From positions 1 through 64,000 of the forward strand of contig JAJRSK010000068.1 of NCBI GenBank assembly GCA_024278835.1: a stretch of 64,000 nucleotides of DNA, given 5' to 3'. Below, piece by piece: positions 6,111 to 38,133 of the stretch (position 1 is the first letter of the stretch; the number at the start of each line of letters is the position of its first letter). The DNA comes from Campylobacterales bacterium. GTDB lineage: Bacteria; Campylobacterota; Campylobacteria; Campylobacterales; QNZT01. The translations under genes were made by a program, and so were the position numbers. Below the pieces are notes generated by a model. It was given only the letters and a program-made list of their open reading frames with translations, made no database searches and was not told where the DNA came from.

Positions 6111-6380
6111 TTATTACTCCATCAACTAAATAGCTTCATAGTTAACGATTTGATTTTGCTTCATATCGAGGCAAAATCATGCAGGACTAACTGGTTAATT
6201 CAAATGATTTTAACGAAAATATGGAGCAAAAGCAAATCGCCCGAAGGGAAGCACTTAGAGGCACAAACTTCAGCACCAAAAAGTTTTGAATTAACCAGTT
6301 AGTCCTGCAACTTTTTGATACTAAATTTTATGCCTCTAAGTGCTTTTAACTATGAAGCTATTTAGTTGATGGAGTAATAA
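6111..6380. repeat. 270-bp element with a perfect 35-bp terminal inverted repeat and internal inverted repeats
   Basis: 6111-6145 is the exact reverse complement of 6346-6380; 6181-6204 of 6285-6308; 6249-6263 of 6331-6345; 6152-6159 of 6171-6178. Confidence 0.93.
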
Positions 6381-9069: not shown

Positions 9070-9079
9070 CTTCTCATAC

Positions 9080-9109
9080 TATCATGATAGGAGCTTTCCT
9101 ATCATGATA
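9080..9109 (+). terminator. Hairpin after dnaK built from two TATCATGATA copies
   Basis: TATCATGATAGGA-gctt-TCCTATCATGATA, perfect 13-bp stem, 10 bp after the dnaK stop, AT-rich downstream. Confidence 0.65.
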
Positions 9110-11288: not shown

Positions 11289-13246
11289 TGGCGCTGATTG
11301 ATTTGATAGGGGTGAGTAAAAGTTATGATTTAAAAAAGATACTTTGTGAGGTGGACTTCTCTATGCAAGAGGGGGAACGCATCGCCATCATCGGGAAAAA
11401 TGGCGGTGGAAAATCTACCTTTATGAAGATATGTCAAGGGGTCTTGGGTTTTGAGGATGGTAGGCGTATCGTACCGCAAAATGTGAAGGTCGAGATGCTT
11501 GACCAAGTACCAAAATTTGAGATGGGTGTGAGCGTCAAAGAAGCGGTGGAAAATCAGCTCGTAGAACTTAAGTCCGCAAAAATGGAGTATGATGAGATAA
11601 GTATCGCTCTTGAAAGTGACTTTGAAAACGAATCCTTGCTAAAGCGTCATGCTTTTCTTGGTACATTTTTGGATACACACAATGCTTGGTCACTAGAGGA
11701 TAAAGTGGAACGCGTTTTGCAAGAATTTCACCTCAAAGCGTATGAGAACCGTCCTGTGGATTTACTCTCTGGTGGAGAACAAAGACGGGTGGCTTTGGCT
11801 GGATTGCTTCTTAAAAAGCCTGATATTTTACTGCTTGATGAGCCGACCAATCACCTTGATGTTTATATGGTGGAGTTTTTAGAACAGATGTTACTGCGTG
11901 AAAAATTTACCCTTCTTTTTATCTCTCATGATAGATACTTTTTAGACAATATCGCTACACGTTCTATCGAGATTGATGATTGTAAATTGCGCTCTTTTAA
12001 GGGTGGATATAGCGACTATATCGTTGCCAAAGAAGCACTCATGAAATCGTTACAAAAGAGCCATGAGACGCTTTTAAAGGTCTTAAAAGGTGAAGAAGAA
12101 TGGCTTCATCGTGGGGTAAGAGCGAGGCTGAAGCGAAATGAGGGGCGCAAAGAGCGTGTTATGCAGATGCGAGAAGAGGCAAAGAAAAACCCATCGCTTA
12201 TTCGCAAGATGCAAGTAGAACTTGAAAAAGAGCAGAAAAACTTCAACCAAGCAGAGAGCAGCAACAAAAAGAAGATGCTTTTTGAGGTAGAGAATATCTC
12301 AAAATCATTGGGTGAAAAAATGCTCATAAAAGACTTTTCTATCCGGATTTTACAAAAAGATTGTATCGCAATTGTAGGAAAAAATGGTGCAGGAAAATCG
12401 ACACTCTTAAAACTGCTTCTAGGAAAGATGCAAGTGGATTCTGGCAAAATTAAAAAGGGTGAATTTAAGATAGGATACTTTGACCAACAGCGTGAGATGT
12501 TGGATGATGAGAAAGACTTGTTAGAGACATTTTGTCCACTTGGTGGAGACCGTGTGGATGTGAAGGGTTCTAGTATTCATGTCTATGGTTATCTTAAAAG
12601 CTTTCTTTTTCCTAAAGAGGATTTAAATAAAAAGGTCGGTTTGCTAAGTGGTGGAGAGAAAAACCGTGTGGCACTTGCACTCTTGTTTTCTAAAAAGTAT
12701 GACTGCCTTATTCTTGATGAACCGACCAATGATTTGGACATCAACACCATCAATATCTTAGAAGAGTACCTGCAAACATTTCAAGGTGCGGTGGTACTGG
12801 TGAGTCATGATCGGTTTTTCTTGGATAAAATCGCTAAGAAACTGCTTATCTTTAAAGGTGAGGGTGTCGTAGAAGAGAGTTATCTTTCGTATAGTGAGTA
12901 CTTGGATATCGAAAAAGAGCTCAAGGATATAGCGCATTTTGCTAAAGAGAGCCAAGTTGTTGAAAAAGTCGAAGAGAAACGTCATACAAATCGCGCCTTA
13001 AAACTCTCCTATAAAGAGAAAGAAGCCTATGAAAAACTCCCTATCATGATAGAGGAGGAAGAGCTAAAGATAGAAGAGATAAATACTTGTCTCTATGATC
13101 CTAGCTGTTATGAAGAAAAAGGGCTTGTAGCATTGAGTGAGGAGCTTAAGCAGCGTGAAGAGAGACTTGAAGAGATGGTGGAAGAGTATCTTCTTTTAGA
13201 AGAGAAGGTTGAGGAGATAGAGAGAGGGGCTCAAACTCCCTCTTAA
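11288..13246 (+). CDS. ABC-F family ATP-binding protein
   Basis: Two Walker A (GKNGGGKST, GKNGAGKST), two LSGGE signatures, no membrane domain. Confidence 0.92.
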   Translation: MALIDLIGVSKSYDLKKILCEVDFSMQEGERIAIIGKNGGGKSTFMKICQGVLGFEDGRRIVPQNVKVEMLDQVPKFEMGVSVKEAVENQLVELKSAKMEYDEISIALESDFENESLLKRHAFLGTFLDTHNAWSLEDKVERVLQEFHLKAYENRPVDLLSGGEQRRVALAGLLLKKPDILLLDEPTNHLDVYMVEFLEQMLLREKFTLLFISHDRYFLDNIATRSIEIDDCKLRSFKGGYSDYIVAKEALMKSLQKSHETLLKVLKGEEEWLHRGVRARLKRNEGRKERVMQMREEAKKNPSLIRKMQVELEKEQKNFNQAESSNKKKMLFEVENISKSLGEKMLIKDFSIRILQKDCIAIVGKNGAGKSTLLKLLLGKMQVDSGKIKKGEFKIGYFDQQREMLDDEKDLLETFCPLGGDRVDVKGSSIHVYGYLKSFLFPKEDLNKKVGLLSGGEKNRVALALLFSKKYDCLILDEPTNDLDINTINILEEYLQTFQGAVVLVSHDRFFLDKIAKKLLIFKGEGVVEESYLSYSEYLDIEKELKDIAHFAKESQVVEKVEEKRHTNRALKLSYKEKEAYEKLPIMIEEEELKIEEINTCLYDPSCYEEKGLVALSEELKQREERLEEMVEEYLLLEEKVEEIERGAQTPS

Positions 13247-26910: not shown

Positions 26911-28328
26911 TAGAGCAATTTAGTAAAAAAACACCACGCATCTTGGTGGTGGGTGATTTGATGATTGACCACTATCTGTGGGGAAAATGTGAGCGTATCT
27001 CTCCTGAAGCACCTGTGCAAGTTTTGGATGTTGCGCGAGAAGAGAATTTACTAGGTGGGGCGGGGAATGTCCTCAATAATCTCTTAAGCCTAGGTGCCAC
27101 AGTGGGGGTATGTTCTGTCATTGGTGATGATGAGGGGGCTTTGTGGATAGATAAGCGCTTGGATGAGAGAGGGGTTATCAAAGAAGCCTTGCTTAAAGAT
27201 AAGGGGCGAAAAACGACTAAAAAGAGTCGTATCATTGCTCTTCATCAACAGATTATACGGGTGGATAAAGAGAATAGAGAGGATATCTCTGCTTCCTCAC
27301 AAGAAGCGATAGTAAAAAGCGTAAAAGCGATTTTAGGAGAGTATGATTTGCTACTTTTGTCTGATTATAAAAAGGGTGTTTTGACAGATACTTTGACAAA
27401 AGAGCTTATCATGATAGCCTCTACTAAAGATATACCGGTCTTTGCTGATCCCAAAGGAGATGATTATAGCAAATACAAAGGGGCGACACTCATCACGCCC
27501 AACAAAAAAGAGGCCTCTATCGCGACACATATTGAAATCAATAGTGAAAATGATTTAATTATGGCGGGAGAGAAGTTACACAATGATTTGGATTTAACTT
27601 ATGCCTTTATCACGCTTTCAGAAGAGGGGATGGCTATCTTCTCTAAAGAGGGCATGACCAAGATACCAACGGTGGCAAGGGAAGTCTTTGATGTCACAGG
27701 GGCAGGGGATACCGTCATCGCCTCTTTGGCCTTTGCCTATGTGCAAGAGAGTGACATCAAAGCGGCTGCACACTTTGCCAATGCGGCCGCAGCTGTTGCG
27801 GTGGGTAAAGTAGGCTCTGCGACGGTAACAGTTGAAGAGATAAGTGCCTATCATGATAGTCTATCTTCCAAGAAAGCACACAAAAAGATTCTTTCATGGC
27901 AAGAGCTAGAAGAGGCGCTCTCAAAGTTGGATAAAAAGATAGTCTTTACCAATGGCTGTTTTGATATCTTGCATGCGGGGCATGTGAAGTATTTAGAAGA
28001 GGCAAAAAGCTTTGGGGATCTGTTGGTGTTGGGATTAAACTCTGATGCTTCAGTTAAGAGGCTTAAGGGAGAGAGCAGACCGATAAATAGTCAAGACGAT
28101 AGGGCTGTGGTACTAGCGGGCTTAGAATCCGTAGATTTTGTCGTCGTGTTTGATGAAGATACCCCTTATGCACTTATCAAGCTTGTTAAGCCTGATGTGT
28201 TGGTTAAAGGGGGAGATTATGAAGGCAAAGAGGTGGTTGGATCAGATATCGCTAAAGAGACGCGACTGGTGCAGTTTGTAGAGGGAAAGAGTACCACAAA
28301 GATAATAGAGAGGGCACGGCTATCATGA
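26907..28328 (+). CDS. hldE: Bifunctional heptose 7-phosphate kinase/adenylyltransferase
   Basis: PfkB kinase domain plus [24 protein letters not shown] nucleotidyltransferase domain. Confidence 0.96.
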
Positions 28329-32037: not shown

Positions 32038-32594
32038 GATAGAGTATACAATAAAAGTGATTTCAAGCTCAGTCGTTTCTCTTGCTTGGCAAGTACTATC
32101 GTCATCAAACCGGAAAATGCCAAAAAGATACTATAAATTGTATGCCACATATGGACAGAGAGGCTTTTGGTATTGACTTCATGAAAGTCATACAGTTGAA
32201 AATAGACCGCAAGAGATTGTAAGAGAGATATGCCTAAACCTGCTAAAAATGCGTAGAGTAAATCTCTATATCTATCACTTTCAAAAGAGGTATAGAGGAT
32301 AGGAATGATAAGAAAATAGATATATTTAAAGTCATAAACAATGGCTTCTTGGTAGTTTTTAGGCTCTATCCAGAGGTAGCTTATCGTCATATAAGTACAA
32401 AAAAGCAGTAAAGAGAGAAGGAACTTTTGTCTGATTATTTGCTGATATTTAGCTTTAAAATCTCCCTCTAAAAGCCACAATATAAGAAGCATAAAACCAG
32501 AGATATTGATACCTGCACGAGAGAGCGTCGTGCTAAAGGCAAAGCATATTGCAAAAAAATAGAGTGCTTTTTTGAGATAAGGTTTTGCTATCAT
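32034..32594 (-). CDS. O-antigen ligase-like protein, N-terminal part of split gene
   Basis: Polytopic 186 aa ending in LLLYTLS; 4-nt ATGA overlap with the C-terminal part. Confidence 0.7.
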   Translation of the reverse strand: MIAKPYLKKALYFFAICFAFSTTLSRAGINISGFMLLILWLLEGDFKAKYQQIIRQKFLLSLLLFCTYMTISYLWIEPKNYQEAIVYDFKYIYFLIIPILYTSFESDRYRDLLYAFLAGLGISLLQSLAVYFQLYDFHEVNTKSLSVHMWHTIYSIFLAFSGLMTIVLAKQEKRLSLKSLLLYTLS

Positions 32595-33538
32595 GATAGT
32601 CTATTTTGAATTTCATTTAAAATCATCTCTTCCCCAATAGCGGCAATTTGTGCACTATCTTTGATAAGAGACTCCCCTGCATAGAGATAAGAACCAAAAT
32701 CGACTTTTGGCTTGACGATACTAAAAGGGCTCGTTCCTTGTCCTAGCAGGGTAATAAAGGGTGTCTGCGTAGCAGCAGCTATATGTATGGCAGAGGTATC
32801 TATACTTACCAATAAATCAACACTTGCAATGACATCGATAAATTGGGCAATGGTGGTTTTTGATGTTAAATCTATTGCATCTGGCATATATTTGGCAAAT
32901 TGCGCATTACTCGCTTTGTCATGCTTGTCCCCGAGCAAGAGGATTTGATAGGGAAGTTGCTGGAGTTGTTTGCAGAGTGATATGGCTTTGTCATGCGGGT
33001 AGCCTCTATCTCCTTTATCACTACCTAATACAAGGGCAATAGTCGGGGTAGATGTTTTGGTATAGAGGGTCTGTGCTTGAACAAATAGCTTGGTAGGAGG
33101 GAGTATTTCATAGATATCTCCTAGGTAGGCATTGACTAAATGTGCATAGTGGTTGCTATAGTGTCGTGCTCGATTTATCTTGGGTGCAAAATCTAGAAAT
33201 ATTTCTCGTCCGCCATTTTTATAGCCAATGAGAGTATCTATCTTGGCAGATTTAAAGAGTAGAGCAGCAGAGAGAGCATTATGGAAGAGTATGCCCAAAT
33301 CATAATGGTTTTTGCGTAGTTTTTTCACTAAAGTCCATGATTTTTGAACGCGATTTTTACCTCTTGTATCATCTATGAATATCTCTTTTATAGGATATCC
33401 TCGAAAAAGATCTTTGCAGTGGGCAGGCGTAACAACGCTAAACTCTGCCTCTTTATAGTGCTTTTGTAACAACAGCAGGGTAGGCATCATCATGACAGTG
33501 TCACCAATAAAGTTAGGAGTCTTGATGATGATTTTCAT
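32591..33538 (-). CDS. LPS heptosyltransferase family protein
   Basis: KIIIKTPNFIGDTVMMMPTL, LVSIDTSAIHIAAATQTPFITLLGQGTSP. Confidence 0.88.
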   Translation of the reverse strand: MKIIIKTPNFIGDTVMMMPTLLLLQKHYKEAEFSVVTPAHCKDLFRGYPIKEIFIDDTRGKNRVQKSWTLVKKLRKNHYDLGILFHNALSAALLFKSAKIDTLIGYKNGGREIFLDFAPKINRARHYSNHYAHLVNAYLGDIYEILPPTKLFVQAQTLYTKTSTPTIALVLGSDKGDRGYPHDKAISLCKQLQQLPYQILLLGDKHDKASNAQFAKYMPDAIDLTSKTTIAQFIDVIASVDLLVSIDTSAIHIAAATQTPFITLLGQGTSPFSIVKPKVDFGSYLYAGESLIKDSAQIAAIGEEMILNEIQNRLS

Positions 33539-33611: not shown

Positions 33612-34862
33612 CTACTTTAAAAATTGACTATTTTGGGTTAATATCTCTGTCAAGATGGTATTTATTGGTTTTTTTGATTTCTCTTTTAATAGATGATAAG
33701 TCTCCGTATCTCTCACTTCATGATTAAAAATTTCATTGGGTAAGTTTGAGTAGATATAGGTCCCTTGCTTGGTCACAATAGCATTTTTATTCCATTTGGC
33801 GACATAACAGTACGCTCTTTGGTAGTTTTTATCTAGTAAGTTGTTGCCGCAGGAGTAGTCTGAAGGGGGATTTTCCAGACCCAACAGTGTTAGTATCGTG
33901 GCAGGAAAGTCAAGATGCGAGGTCATTTTGTGGATAATTTTATGTGGGGTATCTGGAAGCTTGAGGATAAAGGGTGAATTGATTTGTGCTTTTGAAAAGG
34001 CTGAGTTGTGTCCAAAAAAACCATACTCAAAAAACTCTTCCCCATGGTCTGAACTAAAGAGTATAATGGCATCTTTGTAAAGTCCCTTTTTCTTGATAGC
34101 ATCAAGCATATCTCCAAAGAGTTTATCATCATAATAGATGGCATTTTTATAACTGTTTTTAAATTTTTCACTATTTTTTCTCTTAATTGTCAGATAATTT
34201 AATCCTCCGTTTCCTGCATTGGGTTTGAATTTGTCATATGATTTTGGATAAGAGTATCCATGAGGTGCATCTAAAAAAACAAAGCTAAAGAGAGGTTTGC
34301 TGCTATCGGCTTTTGCTATCCACTCTATAAATTGCGCACTGCTTTGTGCATCTTTTTGGTAGGGTTCACCCTCAAAATTATCCACAATGGAGTCATTGAC
34401 GCCAGAATAGACGGTCTGTTTAAACTCTGGCCATTGGGTGTTGGTGCTAGAGATGATTTTTATGTGATACTGTTTCTCTTTTAAGACTTGAAAAAAAACA
34501 GGCTCTTTTGCTGCGTGTAAAAAGTTAAACCAGTAGGTAGCATTGAGTCCATAAAAGAAAGAAAATATACCAAAGCGGGTGGCATCCCCTCCTGAGATAT
34601 GGTTTTGAAAATTGAGGGCATCTTTAGAAAAGTGCGTAATATTAGGTGCTGTCTCTTTATTTAAAATAGAGTTTCGTGCTGCATCAAACATAAAGATAAA
34701 GATATGCGGCGAGGGGCTATCTGCTTTAATCTTGATGGGAGATAGGGGGTAGTGGACTTTAGAATTTTTTGAGGCACCAACTAACATAGTCCAACTTTGA
34801 GAGAACGAGAAGGAGTGAGATGTGAGTAGAGAAATGTGAAGGACTCCCCGTAGGGAATGCAA
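33612..34862 (-). CDS. Sulfatase/phosphoethanolamine-transferase-like protein, N-terminus apparently replaced by repeat element
   Basis: IFIFMFDAARNSILNKETAPNITHF, FSSDHGEEF; no N-terminal membrane domain; first ~30 codons lie in the 34774-35032 element. Confidence 0.7.
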   Translation of the reverse strand: MHSLRGVLHISLLTSHSFSFSQSWTMLVGASKNSKVHYPLSPIKIKADSPSPHIFIFMFDAARNSILNKETAPNITHFSKDALNFQNHISGGDATRFGIFSFFYGLNATYWFNFLHAAKEPVFFQVLKEKQYHIKIISSTNTQWPEFKQTVYSGVNDSIVDNFEGEPYQKDAQSSAQFIEWIAKADSSKPLFSFVFLDAPHGYSYPKSYDKFKPNAGNGGLNYLTIKRKNSEKFKNSYKNAIYYDDKLFGDMLDAIKKKGLYKDAIILFSSDHGEEFFEYGFFGHNSAFSKAQINSPFILKLPDTPHKIIHKMTSHLDFPATILTLLGLENPPSDYSCGNNLLDKNYQRAYCYVAKWNKNAIVTKQGTYIYSNLPNEIFNHEVRDTETYHLLKEKSKKPINTILTEILTQNSQFLK

Positions 34863-35032
34863 ACATTTATCTGCACACAGATCGCTTCTTCTCGTTCTCC
34901 CCGAAGGGTGCGTCGATTTCGCCCATAGGACTGCGTTGGATTTTATTGAATTCGCTATGGCGAGTCCTGCAAAAATCCGCCTTGCCTATGAACGAAATCG
35001 ACGCATCAAAGATGAACTATGTTAGTTGGTGC
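34774..35032. repeat. 259-bp element with 27-bp imperfect terminal inverted repeats and internal inverted repeats
   Basis: gcaccaactaacatagtccaactttga (34774-34800) versus reverse complement of 35006-35032 (gcaccaactaacatagttcatctttga); 34801-34812/34889-34900 perfect 12 bp; 34911-34930/34985-35004 18 of 20. Confidence 0.9.
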
Positions 35033-36251
35033 GGTAATAGTATATGATAACAAAACTTACCCTCAGTAAATGCCTTGCCATAGAGAGAGAGCCCCCCTTT
35101 GATATCCAAGAGCGTATCTGACCAGTATATCATGATAGTTTCACTCTTTTTAGAAAAACGCATCATCTTTACCTCTCCTGTGAGATTTGACTCCTCTAAA
35201 TGCGCTCCTTTGAGGAGTTTTAGCATCGTTTGAAAGGCTACAAAGGCGGGGTATTTCTTGATGCCATCGCGGTTATCGACCAATCCATACCCCGGGGCGA
35301 TGAGTTGATGCCAATAGACTCTATCGACTTCTCTTGTACTGAGTGCGATGAGATAGTACTGTAACATATAGAGGGCGTAATCTTCAGGGTTTACACACTC
35401 TTTTTCGCTCGTAGGTGCGTAGGGGACGGTGTTGGAGAGTGGCCAGTTTGTTTCGGTGATGTAGAGTTTGTTACTGCTTTTGGGGGAGAGTATCATGATA
35501 GAATGAAGAAGATTTATTTTCTTTTTCAAGTCAAAGCCCATCTGTTTTCCCTCAGGAGCACCTCGTCTATCCACATAGAGTAAGGCAGTGAATATATCGT
35601 ACTTTAAAGAGAAAAAGTTAAAGAGAGAGCGAATGGTATAGTGATACTCAAAATCAATCACAGAGGAGCCTAAAAGCACTTTATCATGATAGCGTTTATC
35701 GCGTACTCTTTGGGCGACTTGATAAAGCTTGAGGTACTCTTTGATGGTATAAAAAGCCCATTTTTTACGGTTGATGGCATTGCCTATTTGAAATTTTTTG
35801 ATATGGGGAAAGGCTTTAAAAATCTTTTCTATATTCTCTTCAAAGAGGGAGAGGTTTTCGATGTTGTTTCTATCTTGGAGGATGTTTATCAAGATATCTT
35901 TGCCTTTAAATTTCTCGACAAAGGCAACATAAGCATCTAACTTCTCTATCTCCCAAAGTGGCAAGCGTATAAGCAAAGTATCTACGCCTAACTCTTCTAT
36001 CAGGGTAAGTGTCTCTTCTGGATTTTTATCAAGATTTACACCCATTGCAAAAAAGTTTTGGGTATCAATAACTCTTTTTTGTTGTAAAAAAAGATAGGAG
36101 AGGAGGATAAAAGGGGAGAGTATCACTGTGCTAAAGAGGGTGATAAGTTGGTCAAATATCGCTTTTTTATAGATACGCTTTTTAAACTTTTTATCTTTGA
36201 TGATGTGGGGCTGGTCTGAGAAGTTATCCCACTCAAATTTATCATGCATTA
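35017..36251 (-). CDS. TIM-barrel glycosidase-like protein
   Basis: Start taken at MHDKFEWDNF; ITETNWPLSNT, DRVYWHQLIAPGYGL; stop codon lies in the repeat element. Confidence 0.55.
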
Positions 36252-37138
36252 TAGATTTCCTTGTCATAGACTTTAAAACGCTTGTGAGACCAAAACCACT
36301 CATCTGGTCGCTCTTTTATGACCTTTTCTAAGATGTCTGCTTGGGCTTGATTGAGGCGTTTGATATCCTCTTCTTTGCTTAGACTTTCATCTATCATGAT
36401 AGGGGGATAGCAGGTAATGGTATGGTTTTTGAAGTCATGACTTGTGATATAGATAGGAATGATTTTTGCCTTAAATTTGCGTGCAAGGATAGAGACAGAG
36501 GGTGTCTGTGTCACTTTTTTACCAAACAATGTAACAGCTACGCTGAGATTTTTAGGGATACTTTGATCTACCAAAAGTCCAAGGATGCGTCCCTCTCCCA
36601 TCGCTTTTATCATCCCCTTTAATGCACCGCGTTTATTGATGAGTTCTACGCCTACTTGTTCGCGTCCTTTTTTGAGGTACGTTTGCATCAGCTTAGAGTC
36701 GAGTTCTCTTCCAACAGTAGAAAGTGGGATATCAAATCCTAGTGCAATGGCAGAGGGTAAAATCTCCCAAACACCAAAATGTGCTGTGATAAGGATGACT
36801 TTTTCTCCATTTCTAAGTAAGTTATCCAAAATCTCTCGGTTTTCAAAGTGGATGTTTTGGAGTATCTCTTCTTTGCTTTGTCTCTCTCTTTTGATAAAGC
36901 CAGCGATGCCGTGTAGGAGGTTTTGATAAGAGTGGATACCGATAGCTTTTTTCTCTTTTTCCTTCATCTTTGGAAAACAGACTTTTAAGTTGGCATGGAT
37001 GACATTTCTTCGTTTGGCAGAAGCAAAGTAGGCAAATCTAGCAAGAGCACGGATAATTTTATCAAGCCAAGATGCTGGTAGGGTGCGAATAAAAAAGGCA
37101 AAGAGCTTGTAGCTAAAGAGATAAAAGTACTCTATCAT
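36242..37138 (-). CDS. lpxL: Lipid A biosynthesis acyltransferase
   Basis: ITAHFGVWEILPSA, RPDEWFWSHKRFK. Confidence 0.88.
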   Translation of the reverse strand: MIEYFYLFSYKLFAFFIRTLPASWLDKIIRALARFAYFASAKRRNVIHANLKVCFPKMKEKEKKAIGIHSYQNLLHGIAGFIKRERQSKEEILQNIHFENREILDNLLRNGEKVILITAHFGVWEILPSAIALGFDIPLSTVGRELDSKLMQTYLKKGREQVGVELINKRGALKGMIKAMGEGRILGLLVDQSIPKNLSVAVTLFGKKVTQTPSVSILARKFKAKIIPIYITSHDFKNHTITCYPPIMIDESLSKEEDIKRLNQAQADILEKVIKERPDEWFWSHKRFKVYDKEIYNA

Positions 37139-38133
37139 GATAGAAGCTCTTGTGCCTTGCTTATAATCTCTTGTGGGGAAATCTCTTTGATAGAGTAGTC
37201 CTCTTTATTGAGTTTATAGTGGTTGATAGAAGAAGAGGATTTGAGTGTGTGCGATATCTCACTCTCATAGATACGGCTTGGGGGTGTGGGACCAAATAGG
37301 ATAATTGAGGGGATATTGTTTGCCCAAGCGATATAGCTAGGTCCCGTGTCATTGCCAATGAGCAAGTTGGCGTGAGAGATGAGGGCTTTGAGTGCGTTTA
37401 AGTTCATTTTAGGAAGTAGGGTGATGTTGGCGCTTCGTTTTTCCAGCCACTTTCCCATCTCTTTTTCACTCTCTGAGGCGTAGGGGATGAGGATATTGGC
37501 ATCTAGGTTTTGAGCCACTTGGAGTAGTTGCTCTTTTGGGTAGATGCGACTCTTCCAGTTGGCACCGATGATAAAGATAACAGTGGGCATGTTCTCTTTA
37601 AAATAGGGTTTGGAGATCTCAAACTCTTCGTCAAGGTAGTGCATATATGGTTTTTTATGGGTGACTTCTTCTTTTGTAAGTGGCATATCGAGTGCTTTAG
37701 AGACTAAGAGTCTATATCTATCTATGGTGTTTTCATCATAGGCGATGGCATAGCTATCATGATAGAGAGAGGCAGCTAGGCTTTCTCGCGTGGATTTTTT
37801 ATCAAATCCTGCTATCTTTTTGCCTAGTAGTTTGGCGGTGATGGCAGATTTTAAGAGGCCTTGTAGGTCGATGACGATGTCATACTCTTCTTTGGCATAG
37901 GCTTTTATCTTTTTGATTTCAGCAAAAAGATTGGACTTTTTCTTTTTGAGGGATTTTAAGTTGAGTGTTTTGATGGTATGGATGTCGGGATTATGCTCTA
38001 GTATTTGGGCAAATCCTTCTTCAACTATCCAGTCGATTTGTGCCTTTGGGATTTTGGCTTTGATAAATTGTAAGATAAAAGCACTATGAATGATATCGCC
38101 CAAGGCGGAGAGTTTGATGATTGCTATTTTCAT
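37135..38133 (-). CDS. waaC: LPS heptosyltransferase I
   Basis: MKIAIIKLSALGDIIHSAFILQFIK, LIGNDTGPSYIAWANNIPSIILFGPTPPSR. Confidence 0.92.
   Translation of the reverse strand: MKIAIIKLSALGDIIHSAFILQFIKAKIPKAQIDWIVEEGFAQILEHNPDIHTIKTLNLKSLKKKKSNLFAEIKKIKAYAKEEYDIVIDLQGLLKSAITAKLLGKKIAGFDKKSTRESLAASLYHDSYAIAYDENTIDRYRLLVSKALDMPLTKEEVTHKKPYMHYLDEEFEISKPYFKENMPTVIFIIGANWKSRIYPKEQLLQVAQNLDANILIPYASESEKEMGKWLEKRSANITLLPKMNLNALKALISHANLLIGNDTGPSYIAWANNIPSIILFGPTPPSRIYESEISHTLKSSSSINHYKLNKEDYSIKEISPQEIISKAQELLS

Follow-up and report, generated by a model that had tools for sequence, protein, structure and literature searches.

Element e2 occupies positions 34774-35038 (no strand assigned) in an LPS locus of a Campylobacterales genome, within a 64-kb stretch of DNA that was analysed as a whole and is called the window below. 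To its left lies what is left of a sulfatase-fold LPS gene (33612-34773, minus strand; Pfam PF00884): the C-terminal 384 codons remain, while the ~225 residues of the N-terminus are missing beside e2. The best NCBIfam match of this fragment, YejM/PbgA/LapC, is sub-threshold. A relative of 609 aa (L147, in G013) is 60% identical over the common part, which starts at residue 226, and the homology ends at e2. On the right, an ORF of 428 aa with no Pfam or NCBIfam match (35017-36303, minus strand) enters the right terminal repeat of e2 with its 3' end. That e2 splits one gene into two flanking halves proved to be wrong, because this right-hand ORF is unrelated to the missing N-terminus. We infer that a deletion or rearrangement had its breakpoint here, perhaps through recombination between two copies, and that this is not a clean insertion. 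The open frame of the truncated gene starts inside e2, with a TTG at 34862, and e2 could therefore supply its start.

Architecture of e2 and e1

A first-pass annotation of the window had described e2 and a second element, e1 (6111-6380, no strand assigned), as inverted-repeat elements of 259-270 bp, and both were borne out, each with terminal and two inner inverted repeats. In e2 the terminal repeats (34774-34800, plus strand, and 35006-35032) are 27 nt long and 93% complementary, and in e1 (6111-6145 and 6346-6380) they are 35 nt long and perfect. One boundary had to be corrected: the right terminal repeat of e2 (35006-35038, minus strand) extends beyond the annotated 35032 to ~35038, where it ends in ATTACC followed by TA (ATTACCGCACCAACTAAC when read inward). 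On the left, e2 is short of its outermost ~7 bp and directly adjoins the truncated gene.

Between its terminal repeats, e2 carries a class I hairpin arm on the plus strand (34801-34899; internal loop GTGAGAT / AGATCGC, tip GGACTCCCCGTAGGGAATGC), a central mini-hairpin, CCCGAAGGG (34900-34908, plus strand), that is the same centre as in other members, and a class II hairpin arm on the minus strand (34909-35005; internal loop AAGGC / CAACGCAG, tip GGACTCGCCATAGCGAATTC). The order of classes in e1 is a class II arm (6146-6239, plus strand), the same centre (6240-6248, plus strand) and a class I arm (6249-6345, minus strand). Two sequences that the annotation had listed as shared, the centre and TTGAATT-N8..10-AGTCCTGCA, are indeed present in both elements, and the latter block is the tip of a hairpin arm. 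As single strands, e1 and e2 fold into a four-way junction made up of an outer stem of the terminal repeats, an arm, a CCC-GAA-GGG hairpin and the other arm, with folding-energy z-scores of -15.0 and -13.1, respectively, against 200 dinucleotide shuffles.

e1 and e2 belong to one family

Direct alignment of e1 and e2 gives short blocks only, and a search of their own genome with e1 did not list e2, as one would expect if the shared blocks were chance matches between unrelated palindromes. To avoid circularity, a covariance model, R3, was built from 12 arms that all come from other genomes. Over the 64-kb window R3 gave exactly four matches, namely both arms of e2 (class II at 34910-35004, minus strand, E 2.6e-17; class I, E 6.9e-6) and both arms of e1 (class II at 6147-6238, E 3.9e-17; class I at 6251-6343, minus strand, E 5.4e-11), where E-values of covariance models are rough by design. 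The weakest of these is a class I arm matched by a model of class II arms; model R2, which contains that very arm, scores it at 91.5 bits. These independent matches refute the chance explanation, which can be set aside with near certainty.

The genome also holds further copies: a full relative of e2 on contig C77 (78% identical, E 7e-51), a half copy of e1 on C41 (93%, E 4e-55) and, with the class II arm model, at least 14 arms. The proposal that e1 and e2 form one diverged family is thus upheld by the independent model and by these copies. Neither of the two outcomes that the annotation had named against it, a lack of more copies and a loss of similarity under proper statistics, was observed. 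The family is in fact wider than had been supposed, since e1 and e2 belong to a superfamily that is defined by its folded core rather than by its ends.

A folded core with polar, inverted arms

Elements of this superfamily are nearly always 263-277 bp long, and those of 264-277 bp contain no ORF of note and no transposase of their own. Their layout is a terminal inverted repeat, a long hairpin arm, a centre of the form CCCnnnGGG, a second arm in inverted orientation and the other terminal repeat, so that each element is a head-to-head fusion of two half-elements. The core measures ~200 bp and each arm ~95 nt. The internal loop is AGGCA / TAACGAAG in class II arms and GTRAGAT / AGATTGC in class I arms, and arms of both classes end in GnAGGACT-mini-hairpin-AATTCAA. 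These tip and internal-loop sequences are invariant across all end types.

In the class II model, which comprises 140 distinct rows, both sides change at all 34 of the 34 pairs and 95.2% of the cells are paired. The covariation score of 0.888 (0.221 for shuffled alignments, at most 0.213 for slid structures) leans high, as do the other values, because the structure had guided the fitting of the alignment and class I arms are among the lower-scoring rows. Pairs at the tip vary in concert (GGACT/AATTC, GGCCT/AAGTC, GCCCT/AAGGC), while a C·A mismatch among them is kept in 86 of 92 class II arms and in 54 of 55 class I arms. With the fixed motifs left out and sequences clustered at 80% identity, G·U outnumbered A·C on the GGACT strand by 22 to 3 for class II arms and by 57 to 2 for class I arms; the preference was also seen without clustering. 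The two arms have opposite orientation in 70 of 71 elements, and therefore either end reads in the order terminal repeat, GGACT-strand arm, centre. Taken together, the polarity, the kept C·A mismatch, the covariation and the inverted arms suggest that selection acts on the folded single-stranded form of the arms, with one arm on either strand of the element. Two points speak against this reading: covariation between arms can also come from gene conversion between them, without any function of the fold, and at the arm tip one wobble and one mismatch are kept on both strands.

Unlike ends around the same core

At least nine dissimilar types of terminal repeat were found around this core. The ends of e2 define type A (ATYACCGCACCAAC) and those of e1 type B (ATTACTCCATCAAC), and the other types are C (GGGCACCTCTAAAAACCC), D (AACCTGAGTTCGACGG), E/G (AGTRCC), F (TAGAACCCTCTGAATAATA), H (TAGTACCGTTCACGC), I (AACGCTTAAC) and J (AAGTCCTTAAT), besides a few singletons; ends of the 3-bp-duplication type read AACCTGAGTTCG. 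Type D elements have a 3-bp target duplication in 21 of 27 copies (2.1 expected). For type C, a 4-bp duplication was found in 16 of 36 copies (2.3 expected), its inner two bases being equal in 27 of 36 (8.5 expected). Types A/B and E/G are flanked by TA with no longer duplication, and the TA flanks of A/B, hence of e1 and e2, are also compatible with the absence of any duplication. The occurrence of three duplication lengths means that one and the same core has been moved by transposases of at least two or three families.

Pairs of elements with different ends occur within single genomes. One MAG carries an H and a G element (L156 and L196) whose cores are 91% identical over 206 bp, while their ends reach 61-65%, no more than shuffled sequence does (maximum 64-65%). 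In the genome of e2, an F and a C element (L251 and L257) have cores that are 80% identical, and their ends, at 58-59%, stay below the maximum of 62-64% for shuffled sequence. Common descent of the core is shown, as is the presence of near-identical cores with different ends in one genome, and a core that stays unchanged between differing ends suggests that it is itself kept by selection.

Mini-hairpins of 30-45 bp were considered as empty sites for insertion of the core, which is less likely given that their centres differ between copies. The idea is also weakened by two sites in one MAG with the same flanks around a 267-bp element (L164, JALSQJ010000210, 110-376) and a 153-bp element (L194, G023:C261, 861-1013); this pair is an internal deletion caught within a population or an assembly. 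In two other loci (L109, G003:C73, 170-220, and L211, G022:C383) the element is lengthened by an insert at the arm tip, which in L109 comprises 47 bp and can itself form a hairpin. These are nested insertions at hairpin tips. A type A element of 902 bp (L118, G010:C237:30600-32180, 598-1500) contains two genes within an arm, encoding a PemK/MazF-like toxin (PF02452, 2.9e-26) and its probable partner, a toxin-antitoxin pair.

Solo terminal repeats beside genes had been considered as recombination or regulatory sites. We gave up this idea because type D solo ends break at variable points inside the terminal repeat or arm, as would be expected of decayed copies. In individual cases, lone terminal repeats directly adjoin toxin-antitoxin-like genes (L094/L106, G009:C34; L025, G000:C20:48389; L103, G009:C328; L024, G000:C68:54032), among them ParE (PF05016), nucleotidyltransferase/HEPN-like pairs and an AbiEii-like gene.

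Transposases that could act on the ends

The annotation had proposed a search for an autonomous transposase flanked by the same ends. For the ends of e1 and e2 none was found, whereas one end type of the wider family does have a parent: type C ends are identical to the ends of an insertion sequence from the IS5 family. Its intact copy (L334, in G032) encodes a 349-aa IS5 transposase (NCBIfam transpos_IS5_4, 263.9 bits, cutoff 140), has GGGCACCTCTAAAAAC ends with TTAA on both sides and contains no arm motif, and decayed copies of this element are present in G286. The ends of e1 and e2 (ATTACYSCAYCAACTAA, with TA flanks) do not show the GGGCACCTC ends and 4-bp duplication of the IS5 type. No autonomous element was found between A/B ends in their own genome and family, nor between D ends in three MAGs. 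For A/B, D and E/G ends the searches turned up no matching transposase; only type C has a parent.

Matches to Y1_Tnp (PF01797) were detected in 21 of 39 arm-bearing genomes compared to 55 of 259 genomes without arms (Fisher p 5e-5). The remaining 18 arm-bearing genomes, which include one-contig genomes and G149 with its 16 copies, have no such match at E 1e-6, so that a Y1 transposase as obligatory partner is unsupported.

Distribution

Arms are present in 39 of 298 Campylobacteria genomes and in 18 of 59 genera, and several of these genomes consist of one contig. With more candidates scored and second-arm matches included, 35 arm matches were counted in G010, 41 in G022 and 16 each in G149 and G286. 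Since MAG assemblies break at repeats, copy counts are lower bounds. A scan of GTDB species genomes for the exact motif returned 32 stretches, all from Campylobacterales MAGs bar one MAG labelled Lutibacter. No match was obtained among viral contigs (IMG/VR) with the tip motif or among the plasmids searched with e2. We found no description of the element in the literature searched, which covered few subscription journals. The two-hairpin family is thus widespread in Campylobacterota and apparently undescribed.

A genome related to that of L177 has the matching intergenic site without the D element, and elements therefore come and go. Upstream of the rpsB leader, one genus has a full element (L046, G009:C50) and another a decayed relic (L105, G012:C9) at the same place, which reflects either an old common insertion or a site that is used repeatedly. 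The MAG labelled Lutibacter (Bacteroidota) holds two type D-like elements (L155; G320:C49, C58), owing either to transfer from phylum to phylum or to contamination.

Discussion

MITEs are thought of as the remnants of one parent transposon, with an interior of no consequence. The elements described here resemble IS-derived MITEs in that they are short and non-coding and have terminal inverted repeats, target duplications, a high copy number and deletion derivatives. An ordinary MITE family, however, has one set of ends and one parent, whereas in the two-hairpin family a single folded core occurs with a wide variety of ends and with three lengths of duplication. What is conserved is the interior, and what can be exchanged is the ends, the reverse of the usual MITE picture. 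Correia-like and other hairpin MITEs are likewise a few hundred bp long, with TA at the flanks, hairpins and a tendency to interrupt genes.

TA-flanked hairpin MITEs have been described in Thiomargarita (PMC4853749); the parts of that paper used here report no two-arm core with conserved tip and internal loops. REPINs, for which a clover configuration has been proposed (PMC3116915), also consist of two inverted polar hairpins with compensatory changes and extragenic dispersal, but they are shorter, foot-tagged and tied to Y1 transposases, while two-hairpin elements have long terminal repeats and 2-4 bp duplications and occur also in genomes without detectable Y1. The CGTC/GTAG repeats of Sulfurovum sp. 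NBC37-1 (PMC3733652) are palindromic and interspersed and come from the same order; they are 20-40 bp long with different tags, and the sections of that report consulted make no mention of a two-arm element.

We conclude that e2 is probably a member of a non-autonomous, MITE-like family of transposable elements that is moved in trans and whose core, which folds as a single strand, is under selection. Put most cautiously, the elements are MITE-like and moved in trans, and they combine a conserved folded core with ends that can be exchanged. The ends would be cut in trans by more than one family of DDE transposase, with an IS5 enzyme acting on type C, Tc1/IS630-like enzymes on the TA types A/B (e1, e2) and E/G, and another putative DDE transposase producing the 3-bp duplications of type D. 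With less confidence, the arms would act as folded single strands, in an extruded cruciform or as lagging-strand hairpins, and might keep the two ends joined or be bound at the mismatched tip by a cellular protein. Such a fold could allow the unit to move with whatever compatible pair of ends it has, and template switching at the bases of the hairpins may swap the ends. Later, a local deletion or rearrangement would have had its breakpoint at e2.

The main rival holds that the core is a structured RNA element, whose hairpin stops, processes or stabilises transcripts or binds a protein, while the ends merely spread it. The preference of each arm for the GGACT strand, the covariation and the conserved asymmetric internal loops would all fit such a role, as would the symmetric order from both sides: with the arms inverted, a transcript that reads into the element from left or right first meets an arm in functional orientation. 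However, since the arms are functional on opposite strands, no single transcript has both in sense, and no family of Rfam 15 scores above its gathering score, a relaxed threshold yielding only chance models of microRNA hairpins. We regard an RNA role as possible but the less probable explanation. We prefer a role of the core in movement or retention as folded single-stranded DNA, because the inverted pair of polar arms mirrors the two ends.

Two further explanations concern the origin of the core. The arms could be hairpins of the REP kind that a Y1 (RAYT/IS200-type) transposase mobilises, as their inverted polar pairing with compensatory changes and the enrichment of Y1_Tnp in arm-bearing genomes might indicate. 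We consider this unlikely, since nearly half of these genomes are without a detectable Y1_Tnp, long terminal repeats with 3- and 4-bp duplications are features of DDE and not of Y1 enzymes, and no GTAG or CGTC tag was seen, the conserved features being at the arm tip and internal loops. Alternatively, each end type could be a separate MITE family with its own parent IS, the cores being alike by convergence on hairpins, which are frequent in MITEs. The derivation of type C ends from an IS5-family element agrees with this, but that element lacks the arm motif, the tip and loop sequences do not vary with the ends, and the 91% identity between the cores of the H and G elements refutes convergence unless that pair is a lone recombinant. 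Convergence is hence very improbable.

A bolder proposal, which we hold with as much doubt as belief, is that the folded two-hairpin core, and not the transposon end, is the unit of inheritance: a selected single-stranded fold would have repeatedly taken on unrelated ends (with 2-, 3- and 4-bp duplications) and so spread through a bacterial order independently of any one transposase. If the fold is selected, a cellular or transposon-borne partner must recognise a hairpin that is polar and carries a C·A mismatch at the tip, and identifying this partner would explain the prevalence of hairpins among bacterial mobile repeats. The elements are abundant, with up to ~40 arm matches per genome, and their hosts include some with complete genomes. 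They also account for truncated genes and rearrangements in LPS loci like that of e2.

The window contains another repeat, the palindrome CTATCATGATAG, at 43 sites with at most one mismatch in 64 kb (0.23 expected; largest number in 100 shuffles, 3). These sites (e.g. 9079-9090, 13041-13052, 27848-27859, 32588-32599 and 37132-37143) are both genic and intergenic, and make it a highly iterated palindrome comparable to cyanobacterial HIP1.
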